The notes under the pieces: model-generated
Seen by the model: the letters and a program-made list of their open reading frames with translations, nothing else
Database searches by the model: none
What the model was told of the DNA's origin: nothing
NCBI RefSeq assembly: GCF_014138285.1
Contig: NZ_JACGXN010000004.1
Coordinates: forward strand, 1-64,000
Reading direction: 5' to 3'
Source: Phyllobacterium myrsinacearum
GTDB taxonomy: Bacteria > Pseudomonadota > Alphaproteobacteria > Rhizobiales > Rhizobiaceae
DNA length: 64,000 nucleotides
Part shown: in pieces, positions 36,411 to 39,864 of the stretch
Numbering within the stretch: position 1 is the stretch's first letter
Layout: every line of letters starts with the position of its first letter
Position numbers and translations under genes: made by a program

Positions 36411-37601
36411 ATGACCCAGCAATTCATCGATCACCTTACGACTGAGCTGAAAGGCTTGAAGGAGTCCGGGCTTTACAAGTCCGAACGTATCATCACCTCC
36501 AAGCAGGCCGGGGAAATCGAAGTTTCCGGCGGTGCCAGGGTTCTGAATTTCTGCGCCAACAATTATCTCGGTCTTGCCAACAATGAAGAGCTGGCGGAAG
36601 CCGGAAAAGCCGCGCTCGATCGTTATGGCTACGGCATGGCCTCGGTCCGATTCATCTGCGGTACGCAGGAAGAGCACAAGCAGCTCGAGTCGCGCATCTC
36701 CAGCTTCCTTGGTCTGGAAGACACGATTCTCTATTCCAGCTGTTTCGATGCCAATGGCGGCCTGTTCGAGACGTTGCTGGGCGAAGAGGATGCGATCATT
36801 TCCGATGCGTTGAACCATGCTTCGATCATTGACGGCGTACGCCTGTCGAAGGCAAAGCGCTTCCGCTATGCCAATAACGATATGGCGGCATTGGAAGAAG
36901 AACTGAAGAAAGCCGAAGGCAGCCGGTTCAAACTGATCGCCACGGACGGCGTCTTCTCCATGGACGGCATTATCGCCAATCTGAAAGGTGTCTGTGATCT
37001 CGCCGAAAAATACGGCGCCATGGTCATGGTCGACGACAGCCATGCGGTTGGTTTTGTCGGCAAGCATGGCCGCGGTTCCGCCGAGCATTGCGGCGTCGAG
37101 GGCCGGGTCGACATCATCACCGGCACGCTCGGTAAGGCATTGGGCGGTGCGTCGGGCGGGTACACTTCTGGCAAAGCCGAAGTGATTGACTGGTTGCGTC
37201 AGCGGTCGCGGCCCTACCTCTTCTCCAATACGCTGGCGCCGGTTATCGCCGCCGCCTCGCTGAAAGTATTCGACCTGATCGATCAGGGCGCCGACCTGCG
37301 TGCGCGCCTCAGCGCCAATGCAGCGCATTTCCGCAAGGATATGACCAAGCTCGGCTTTACGCTTGCCGGTGCCGATCACCCGATCATTCCTGTGATGCTC
37401 GGCGATGCGTCGCTGGCACAGGAAATGGCCTCGCGCATGCTGGAGAAAGGCGTCTATGTCGTCGGTTTTGCCTTCCCCGTCGTCCCGAAAGGCCAGGCGC
37501 GCATCCGCACGCAAATGTCTGCTGCCCACACCACGGAAGACGTCGCCCGCGCGATAGACGTCTTTGCGCAAGTCGGGCGTGATCTCGGCATCATCAAATA
37601 G
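36411..37601 (+). CDS. kbl: 2-amino-3-ketobutyrate CoA ligase (glycine C-acetyltransferase) Kbl
   Basis: This 396-residue PLP enzyme cleaves 2-amino-3-ketobutyrate with CoA to glycine and acetyl-CoA. Family marks are F-C-A-N-N-Y-L-G-L, the substrate region [20 protein letters not shown] for PLP binding and the Lys in [15 protein letters not shown]. It is followed after 10 bases by tdh, which makes its unstable substrate. The two form the threonine dehydrogenase pathway. Confidence 0.97.
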
Positions 37602-37611
37602 GAAAAACACC

Positions 37612-38649
37612 ATGTCGAACATGATGAAGGCACTGGTAAAGGCCAAGGCTGAACCCGGCATCTGGATGGAACACGTTCCTGTGCCGGAGCCGGGTCCAAA
37701 CGATGTGCTGATCCGCGTGAAAAAATCCGCGATCTGCGGCACCGACGTTCACATCTACAATTGGGATCAGTGGGCGCAGGCGACAATTCCCGTGCCTATG
37801 GTTGTCGGGCATGAATTCTGCGGCGAGATTGCCGACATCGGCTCGGCTGTCACCAAATACAAAGTTGGCCAGCGGGTTTCCGGCGAAGGTCATATCGTCT
37901 GCGGCACATGCCGCAATTGCCGGGCGGGCAGAGGGCATCTTTGCCGTAACACGCTCGGTGTGGGTGTGCACCGTCCAGGCTCGTTCGGTGAATATGTCTG
38001 CATTCCGGAATACAACGTTGTTCCGATCCCGGATGATGTTTCTGATGAGATTGCCGCGATCTTCGATCCGTTCGGAAATGCGGTTCATACCGCATTGAGC
38101 TTTGACCTTGTGGGCGAAGATGTGCTCGTTACCGGTGCCGGGCCAATCGGCATCATGGGCGCCATGGTTGCCAAGCGCTCCGGCGCACGCAAGGTTGTTA
38201 TCACCGACATTAACCCGTCCCGCCTTGCACTCGCCAAGAAGATGGGCATCGATCACGTCGTCGATGCGTCAAAAGAGAACCTTACGGATGTCATGCGCCA
38301 GATCGGCATGACGGAAGGCTTTGACGTCGGTCTTGAAATGTCGGGTGCTGCGCCCGCCTTCCGCGACATGATCGACAAGATGAACAATGGTGGCAAGATT
38401 GCCATTCTGGGCATTGCGCCGACAGGCTTTGAGATCGACTGGAACAAGGTCATCTTCAAGATGCTCAATCTGAAGGGCATTTACGGCCGGGAAATGTTCG
38501 AGACCTGGTACAAGATGATTGCTTTCGTACAAGGCGGTCTTGATCTCAGCGAAATCATCACCCATCGTCTGCCGATTGACGATTTCCAGACCGGTTTTGA
38601 TGCCATGCGCTCGGGAAGCTCGGGCAAGGTGGTTCTGAGCTGGCACTGA
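37612..38649 (+). CDS. tdh: L-threonine 3-dehydrogenase Tdh
   Basis: This 345-residue zinc alcohol-dehydrogenase-type enzyme oxidises L-threonine to 2-amino-3-ketobutyrate. Catalytic zinc ligands lie in C-G-T-D-V-H and G-H-E-F-C-G-E. The structural zinc lobe has [15 protein letters not shown], and the NAD motif is [10 protein letters not shown]. The ATG at 37612 is preceded by AGGAAAAACACC; the frame extends upstream into kbl without need. It is the second gene of the kbl-tdh operon, followed by a pair of hairpins. Confidence 0.97.
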
Positions 38650-38712: not shown

Positions 38713-38751
38713 AATATGTGTAGTTCATGGTGCATTCGGAGGTTTTTGCCC

Positions 38752-39864
38752 ATGACCAAGATGCTCGCAACCGTCAAAACGCTTGAAGAGGCGAATATCA
38801 TTCTTCAAAGCGGCGCCGACGTCATCGATGTGCTGGTCTCTGATCTGGAAGCGTTGCGGCCCTATGCAAAAGCTGCAGAGGGCAAGGCCGCGCTGTCCGC
38901 AACCCTGCCGCAGACCGTGCTGCCGTCCCATGCCCGGGAACTGGCGGATCTTGGTCTCGGGTTCATCAAGATTCCGTTTGAAAGCTCCACGTCTTCGTAT
39001 TCTCTGCCCGCTTTGCATGGCACCACGAAGTGGATGGCCGTTGTTCATGTGGATCTGGCGAGCGATCTGCCTGAAGCATCCAGCCTCGGGTCTCAGGGTT
39101 TTGCAGTGATCATGCTGGACACCAGCAACGGATCGCGACTTTTGAATCATCTGTCACTTGCAAGAATCGATGCCTATGTTCGGGAATGCCATGCCCTTTC
39201 GATACTCGTTGGTATAGCCGGTGCGCTCGAGACGCCGGATATTCCGCGGCTTCTCAGTTTTCAGCTCGATATTCTGGGCTTCAAGGAGGCATTTTTCAAC
39301 GGCGCTGTGGCAGACGCAATCGACGTGCAGGCAGCCACACGAATTCGCGCGCTCATTCCTGAAGAGCGGCAAGCGAACCTTGCTCCCGGTGTCGACTATC
39401 AATTGCTGGCGGCGCGGGGTTATTTCCCTGATCCGGCAGAAGAGGGGCTCGGTACCGACAAAATCTTCGTTCGCGATTTCGTCCTGCCCGTTCATATCGG
39501 TGCATATAGTTTCGAGCACGGCGTTGCCCAGAAGATGCGTTTTGACGTAACGGCCGAAGTCTTGCGGGTCACCCGCAACCCTGAAGATATGCGCCACATC
39601 GTTTCCTACGATCTGATAATGGATGGTATTCGCACGATTGTTGCACGCGGGCATATTGAGCTATCCGAGACCCTTGCCGAGCGCGTAGCAGCATTCATTC
39701 TCGAAAATCCACGCGTTGTGCGTGTGGTGGTCCGCGCCGAAAAGCTGGAGCTTGGACCGGGGGGCGTTGGTGTCGAGATCGAACGCAAGCGGGAGGCGCA
39801 AATCGCTCCGGTCAATCCAGCTTATCCAGATGTATCCGTGTCGCAGCGTCGCCGCGACCACTGA
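38752..39864 (+). CDS. Fusion of an MfnB-like (UPF0264/DUF556) domain with dihydroneopterin aldolase (FolB)
   Basis: This 370-residue protein has two domains. Residues 1 to about 205 resemble MfnB, the (5-formylfuran-3-yl)methyl phosphate synthase of methanofuran biosynthesis: M-L-A-T-V near the start, G-A-D-V-I-D-V at 21-27, F-I-K-I near 73 and M-L-D-T at 121-124. Residues about 236-347 are FolB-like, with the acidic site in A-Y-S-F-E-H-G, S-Y-D-L-I-M-D, E-T-L-A-E-R-V and a late Lys at 331. FolB makes 6-hydroxymethyl-dihydropterin for folate or methanopterin. By eye, the Schiff-base Lys expected after I-D-V is Leu28. The start has GGAGGT upstream. The gene faces fae across 20 bases. Confidence 0.8.
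   Translation: MTKMLATVKTLEEANIILQSGADVIDVLVSDLEALRPYAKAAEGKAALSATLPQTVLPSHARELADLGLGFIKIPFESSTSSYSLPALHGTTKWMAVVHVDLASDLPEASSLGSQGFAVIMLDTSNGSRLLNHLSLARIDAYVRECHALSILVGIAGALETPDIPRLLSFQLDILGFKEAFFNGAVADAIDVQAATRIRALIPEERQANLAPGVDYQLLAARGYFPDPAEEGLGTDKIFVRDFVLPVHIGAYSFEHGVAQKMRFDVTAEVLRVTRNPEDMRHIVSYDLIMDGIRTIVARGHIELSETLAERVAAFILENPRVVRVVVRAEKLELGPGGVGVEIERKREAQIAPVNPAYPDVSVSQRRRDH

Follow-up and report, generated by a model that had tools for sequence, protein, structure and literature searches.

The window, which is the whole stretch of DNA that was analysed (the first 64,000 nucleotides of a Phyllobacterium myrsinacearum contig), contains an open reading frame of 370 codons in which an MfnB-like domain precedes a dihydroneopterin aldolase (FolB) domain (Table 1). 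A GGAGG ribosome-binding site at 38738-38742 lies 9 nt ahead of the ATG, and the start methionine is the same one that is found in the closest homologues, referred to below as window-type copies. The Pfam profile PF04476 (4HFCP_synth) matches residues 4-182 with 67.7 bits (curated cut-off 22.4, E 1.6e-18), and PF02152 (FolB) matches residues 238-344 with 61.7 bits (curated cut-off 31.8, E 1.2e-16). The protein scores below the cut-offs of the NCBIfam MfnB-type and folB equivalog models and barely above that of the NCBIfam folB_dom model (45.6 versus 45.05). A single-chain AlphaFold model of the fusion (mean pLDDT 86.5, pTM 0.77) predicts eight strands within residues 1-180, followed by a half that resembles FolB, and the top PDB matches in a Foldseek search are chains of MJ1099 (4rc1, 4u9p), with solved FolB chains among and after them. 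An earlier, sequence-only reading of this DNA had proposed that an MfnB-like domain and FolB are joined in one chain, with Pfam and structure set beforehand as the checks on the proposal; both profiles score above their cut-offs, both predicted folds match, and the predicted N-terminal fold is that of MJ1099 rather than an unrelated one.

A chance or wrong-frame ORF is ruled out by the open frame, the ribosome-binding site, the two profile matches, and synteny in other strains, and a recent pseudogene by a frame that is open in six strains with an omega of 0.01-0.04 in the FolB half. Five other Phyllobacterium strains (L008-L011, T1293) carry the fusion as an open frame in the same gene order, which excludes an assembly artefact. 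A promoter and terminator scan returned five promoter-like sites, all on the minus strand, against 2.4 expected, and six terminator-like sites against 4.7 expected, and gave nothing useful for the fusion gene.

Table 1. Features of the fusion gene and its neighbours in the window.
Feature	Coordinates	Strand	Remarks
kbl (glycine C-acetyltransferase)	36411..37601	+	Upstream of the fusion; Aminotran_1_2; name from relatives
tdh (threonine 3-dehydrogenase)	37612..38649	+	102 nt upstream of the fusion; name from relatives
MfnB-like/FolB fusion gene (window-type copy)	38752..39864	+	370 aa; open over 370 codons
MfnB-type (beta/alpha)8 barrel half (residues 1-200), probably without catalytic activity	38752..39351	+	PF04476, fold match, K27/K155 lost
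Leu28 codon, position of MJ1099 Lys27	38833..38835	+	From alignment; Pro in five other Phyllobacterium copies
Loop D123-T-S-N-G-S, equivalent to the MJ1099 D151...K155 loop	39118..39135	+	From alignment; Asp kept, Lys deleted
Linker, residues 201-235	39352..39456	+	Hardly varies among window-type copies
FolB (dihydroneopterin aldolase) half, residues 236-348	39457..39795	+	PF02152
Glu255, equivalent of the FolB active-site Glu	39514..39516	+	From alignment
Tyr286, equivalent of the FolB active-site Tyr	39607..39609	+	From alignment; Tyr53Phe mutant entry 7su4 among structure matches
Lys331, equivalent of the FolB active-site Lys	39742..39744	+	From alignment; Lys98Ala mutant entry 7su6 among structure matches
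fae2, formaldehyde-activating enzyme paralogue, 160 aa	39885..40367	-	PF08714, 214.4 bits; start as annotated in relatives

The same-strand neighbours of the fusion are kbl and tdh, which belong to threonine degradation. The gene on its other side is a true fae lying 20 bases away, as had been noted earlier, but it is encoded on the other strand, its 3' end facing that of the fusion, and this convergent arrangement rules out an operon of the two. No mch, mfnE, mfnF or myfB-type gene stands beside the window copy; its neighbours are a ROK regulator gene, kbl, tdh, fae2, and capsule genes, a block that is common to L008-L011 and T1293 (some of its genes being shadowed in the simple gene calls for L008, L009, and L011) and that is located on plasmids in strains 628 and T1293. 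The four loci L008-L011 carry a fusion 75-82% identical to that of the window, compared with 97-98% for tdh and 92-94% for fae2, so that divergence has been quicker in the fusion than in the genes beside it. fae2 is present in the window and in all four of these loci (5/5), with an omega of 0.02-0.06 in the 8 pairs with defined, non-zero values.

Residues of the MfnB half were read in MJ1099 numbering, which was set from the alignment. In MJ1099, K27 is presumably the Schiff-base lysine, and we take K85, D25, and D151 to be functional residues of MfnB as well. PMC11365854 describes K155 as a catalytic or substrate-binding residue and R217 as a possible phosphate binder. The window copy keeps the equivalents of D25 and D151. 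The equivalents of K27 and K155 are absent from it and also from L008-L011 and L182, and none of the six window-type strains has either; at the K155 position, L008-L011 have no residue, and T1293 reads likewise by eye. The K85 equivalent is Lys73 in the window copy, a lysine in three of the five other strains, and a glycine in L008 and L009. R217 corresponds to Val186, the arginine being lost in window-type copies, and the barrel is about 20 residues shorter than that of the canonical copy described below.

In the FolB half, the glutamate, tyrosine, and lysine of the active site all have equivalents, with Glu255 presumably the counterpart of E22 in Staphylococcus aureus FolB. The FolB active site is built by a tetramer or octamer. 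The E255/Y286/K331 triad is kept in 82 of 82 FolB-bearing rows, which comprise 51 genomes with fae, 21 without it, six window-type copies (one a duplicate), and four separate FolB proteins.

PF04476 and PF02152 each match the genome twice, and these matches correspond to its two fusions. The second, canonical fusion (G000:C14:41237-42352) keeps IDMKNPANGALGA, IKIGL, and DTADK, and with them the lysines K27, K85, and K155. It heads an overlapping minus-strand run of genes for AA_kinase (MfnE-like), flavoprotein, DUF6513/pterin-binding, and DUF447 proteins, and nearby lie mch, fae, and genes for a RimK-like ligase (MyfB-like), a CitG-like protein, a His_biosynth protein (Orf17-like), and a Hydantoinase_A protein. 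In PMC8141765, the MfnB, MfnE, and MfnF homologues of Methylorubrum extorquens are Orf22, Orf21, and Orf9; the other genes of the C14 region would, judging from their Pfam domains, correspond to further gene names in that paper. The window and C14 copies are identical at 198 of 372 aligned positions (53%), with roughly half of the identities falling in FolB, and the FolB halves are far more alike than the MfnB halves. Coordinated supply of furan and pterin cofactors, which the sequence-only reading had suggested for the window gene, would fit the C14 copy, with its three lysines and its mch, fae, and MfnE-like context, but not the window copy, in which K27, K155, and R217 are lost. That reading had overlooked both the loss of K27 and K155 and the second, intact fusion in the same genome.

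Among 297 genomes of the family, two separate PF04476 copies occur only in the window's genome and in G149; the two matches in G057 are one split gene, and the window-type protein of G149, which is identical to that of strain OV277, was counted once. A profile search found three Fae matches in the window's genome, and a third, distant Fae-like gene with 31% identity to fae2 lies near the start of contig C10 (L088:124-822). A gene beside the canonical fusion in T1293 (L184:8167-8802) is annotated 'dihydroneopterin aldolase'; its positional counterpart in the window's genome is the MfnE-like AA_kinase gene.

The recurrence of the fusion and its co-occurrence with fae, a survey proposed with the earlier reading, were followed across the family. 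The query P0001 matched 79 of the 297 genomes (the best candidate places per genome were scored), and with seven FolB-only matches set aside (G009, G065, G097, G118, G171, G231, and G232), a fusion-type protein was found in 72, making the fusion itself common in the family. fae occurs in 51 of the 297 genomes, all of them within the fusion-bearing 72. These 51 genomes keep K27 in 50 cases and K85, K155, and the FolB E/Y/K triad in 51. The sole exception is G057, in which fae is present and the N-terminus of the canonical MfnB is out of frame at K27 (L029). The 21 genomes without fae keep K27 in one case (G282, which is without D25, K85, and K155), K85 in two (G026 and G126), K155 in none, and all three lysines in none; the FolB triad is kept in 21 of 21. 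Each of these 21 has a single FolB match, and a second, separate FolB occurs in 7 of the 72 (G015, G033, G057, G188, G263, G271, and G285).

PF04476 scores run from about 181 to 247 bits in the genomes with fae, as against 134 down to 22 in those without it, where the profile matches 18 of 21 and gives no match in G076, G088, and G093; the N-terminal half of the G088 protein is not convincing as MfnB. Two further genomes with a PF04476 match lie outside the 72: in G252, which is fae-less and has Glu at the K27 position, the contig ends inside the gene, and in G255 the PF04476 match is below the cut-off. Fisher's test of fae against intact lysines gives 2.8e-17, with species that are not independent, and the same contrast is found within single genera (g1, g51, g60, g79, and g88). 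The presence of fae and an intact MfnB are nevertheless not strictly tied, because strain 628 (L011/G1059) has fae2 together with an MfnB of the decayed type only, no intact MfnB having been found in that strain. Fae2 in strain 628 may function in the absence of methylofuran, or may not function.

The decayed fusion lies in a shared setting in several small genomes (L046, L048, L056, L081, and others), its neighbours at L046 being genes for a TerC/CorC protein, LPG_synthase_TM, a Na/H exchanger, and SecD/F. Three genomes of genus g91 (G091, G168, and G228; 1.5-1.6 Mb) have no FolB match, and G282, of the same genus, keeps a decayed fusion.

A tree was built from 120 alignment columns of the FolB halves; many of its forks are open, it has long branches, and its bootstrap remained unsettled. 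The decayed state needs 7 changes on this tree, of which well-supported branches force at least 5, and most simply these changes would be losses. Five window-type copies cluster together (100/95) close to the Phyllobacterium copies, the exact fork being open in the tree. Many dS values exceed 1, so that omega figures for the halves are rough: pairwise values for window-type copies are 0.14-0.23 in the MfnB half (10 pairs) and 0.01-0.04 in the FolB half (9 of 10, one undefined), and those for canonical Phyllobacterium copies are 0.12-0.17 in the MfnB half (4 of 6 pairs) and 0.03-0.04 in the FolB half (5 of 6), all of which indicates purifying selection. An omega of about 0.2 for the barrel would also be expected if barrel misfolding merely harmed FolB. 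The best-kept parts of the window-type N-terminal half are the late barrel and the linker: 17 of 20 residues at 161-180 are invariant in five window-type copies, as are 36 of 40 at 201-240, versus 25 of 40 in blocks 221-260 of four canonical copies, a comparison between sets that differ in species and divergence.

Beyond the family, PF04476 has matches in 20 of 385 genomes of the class and in 92 of 397 of the order. Among the loci examined (L091-L159, part of these matches), folB lies directly behind a separate mfnB in 20 and ahead of it in 9; clear fusions are present at L113, L119, L120, L123, L145, L146, L148, and L149, a partial one at L110, and possible ones at L127 and L130. The presence of fae was tested in 20 hand-picked order genomes, namely 11 from genus g476 whose MfnB scores are low, four with residue loss (G880, G1056, G722, and G924), and five that are intact. 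The 15 genomes without fae are the 15 with a damaged MfnB, and the five with fae are the intact ones; in G924, K27 is the sole loss among the five residues read. In genus g476, an unfused MfnB without K27, K85, and K155 stands behind folB-folK in 11 of 11 genomes, and the median pairwise omega (55 pairs each) is 0.147 for MfnB, 0.129 for FolB, and 0.125 for FolK. The lysines are intact in G873, which belongs to that genus and has fae. G760 gives weak, split PF04476 matches, yet K27, K85, and K155 are present in it.

Based on these data, the window gene probably encodes a dihydroneopterin aldolase whose attached MfnB barrel is non-catalytic and is kept for structural reasons, a reading that we favour with some reserve. 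The product would be a FolB that still carries an MfnB-type furan-phosphate synthase barrel as its N-terminal half. The kept triad suggests that the FolB half is active. The chemistry of the barrel would have been lost, with K27 and K155 gone and K85 unconserved among the copies; loss of the first two is strong evidence of inactivity, if no proof, and a standard MfnB function was set aside for the window copy as implausible on the basis of the lost lysines. The remaining role of the barrel would be structural, and it may have been retained because the conserved late barrel (beta6-beta8) and the linker help the FolB half to fold or assemble. The window copy is probably a duplicate of the canonical fusion that arose in or near Phyllobacterium, rather than a transfer, with the deciding fork open in the tree, and the canonical copy on the other contig would remain for methylofuran and H4MPT synthesis.

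Alternatively, the MfnB half might have no role at all, with selection acting only against stops, frameshifts, and misfolding that harms FolB while the barrel is slowly lost, which we consider a minor but serious possibility. Such decay would be consistent with the stepwise erosion of PF04476 scores in the fae-less genomes, down to the three without a match, and with G924, whose loss of K27 only looks like an early stage. It would also suit a 304-aa form of the fusion from a 1.2-Mb genome, in whose AlphaFold model the N-terminal third is of low confidence (pLDDT 39-66 over residues 11-100), for which reason the model was not used to claim a barrel. However, conservation of the linker and late barrel in window-type copies equals or exceeds that in canonical ones, and the lysine-less MfnB of g476 is about as constrained as FolB and FolK; that protein is unfused, and fusion therefore cannot account for the constraint there.

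The selected, unfused MfnB beside folB-folK could instead argue for a repurposed barrel, in which a lysine-less MfnB would have gained a new folate-linked role, such as the handling of phosphorylated pterins or the regulation of FolB. A family member was solved with PRPP, according to the title of 4rc1, and PMC1971073 leaves FolQ, the dihydroneopterin triphosphate enzyme, open in most bacterial species and has the last phosphate before FolB thought to be removed by a non-specific phosphatase. Nonetheless, the R217-equivalent arginine is lost in window-type copies, and a search among the invariant polar residues of the window-type barrel identified no new active-site cluster, the only lysines invariant across five copies within residues 1-215 being K3 and K45, which makes such a role improbable. 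A bifunctional enzyme that is active in both halves and links the supply of furan to that of pterin, although compatible with two Pfam domains above their cut-offs and a good fit for the canonical paralogue, is scarcely credible for the window copy, in view of the loss of K27 and K155 in six of six window-type strains, the barrel shortened by about 20 residues, the convergent fae neighbour, and the lack of an mfnE or mfnF neighbour.

A retained, non-catalytic barrel on an active FolB, as preferred here, can be extended to a bolder and rather doubtful proposal, namely that furan-dead MfnB barrels have been taken over repeatedly and independently as a part of the folate pathway, either fused to FolB or separate behind folB-folK. 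They might then serve as scaffold, regulator, or handler of phosphorylated pterins, possibly in the dephosphorylation before FolB. More generally, the family offers a natural experiment, repeated several times, on the fate of one half of a fused enzyme once its pathway seems lost, and the unfused g476 case poses the question of whether folate synthesis can recruit a dead cofactor enzyme. There is also a practical side: orthologous copies are named methanofuran enzyme in one public record and dihydroneopterin aldolase in another, and such uneven naming can lead to methylofuran synthesis being predicted in cases where it is improbable. A check for the three lysines would help the annotation of MfnB-FolB proteins.

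No account of an MfnB-FolB fusion or of its decay was found in the open-access PMC literature; PMC9088363 names MfnB and FolB as separate products in a Burkholderiaceae region, and PMC4224340 has other folB fusions as its subject. Compared with Orf22 of M. extorquens, the bacterial MfnB homologue treated in PMC8141765, the window copy belongs to the same Pfam family and shares the predicted barrel and the D25 and D151 equivalents, whereas it is without the equivalents of K27, K155, and R217, is shorter, is fused to FolB, and lies outside a furan-cofactor gene cluster. With solved FolB proteins (3v9o, 1dhn) it shares the Pfam family, the predicted fold, and the Glu/Tyr/Lys triad, to which it adds a 235-residue N-terminal extension made up of the MfnB barrel and linker. 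The canonical fusions, that of C14 and those of 50 other fae-bearing genomes of the family, have the same architecture, the window copy being 53% identical to the C14 protein, but they keep the three lysines (50 of 51), and the C14 copy has mch, fae, and an MfnE-like gene for neighbours. Elsewhere in the order, other families have mfnB and folB next to each other as separate genes. The fusion itself is common in the family; what makes the lysine-less type noteworthy is its recurrence, the constrained form in which it occurs unfused in g476, and the uneven annotation.
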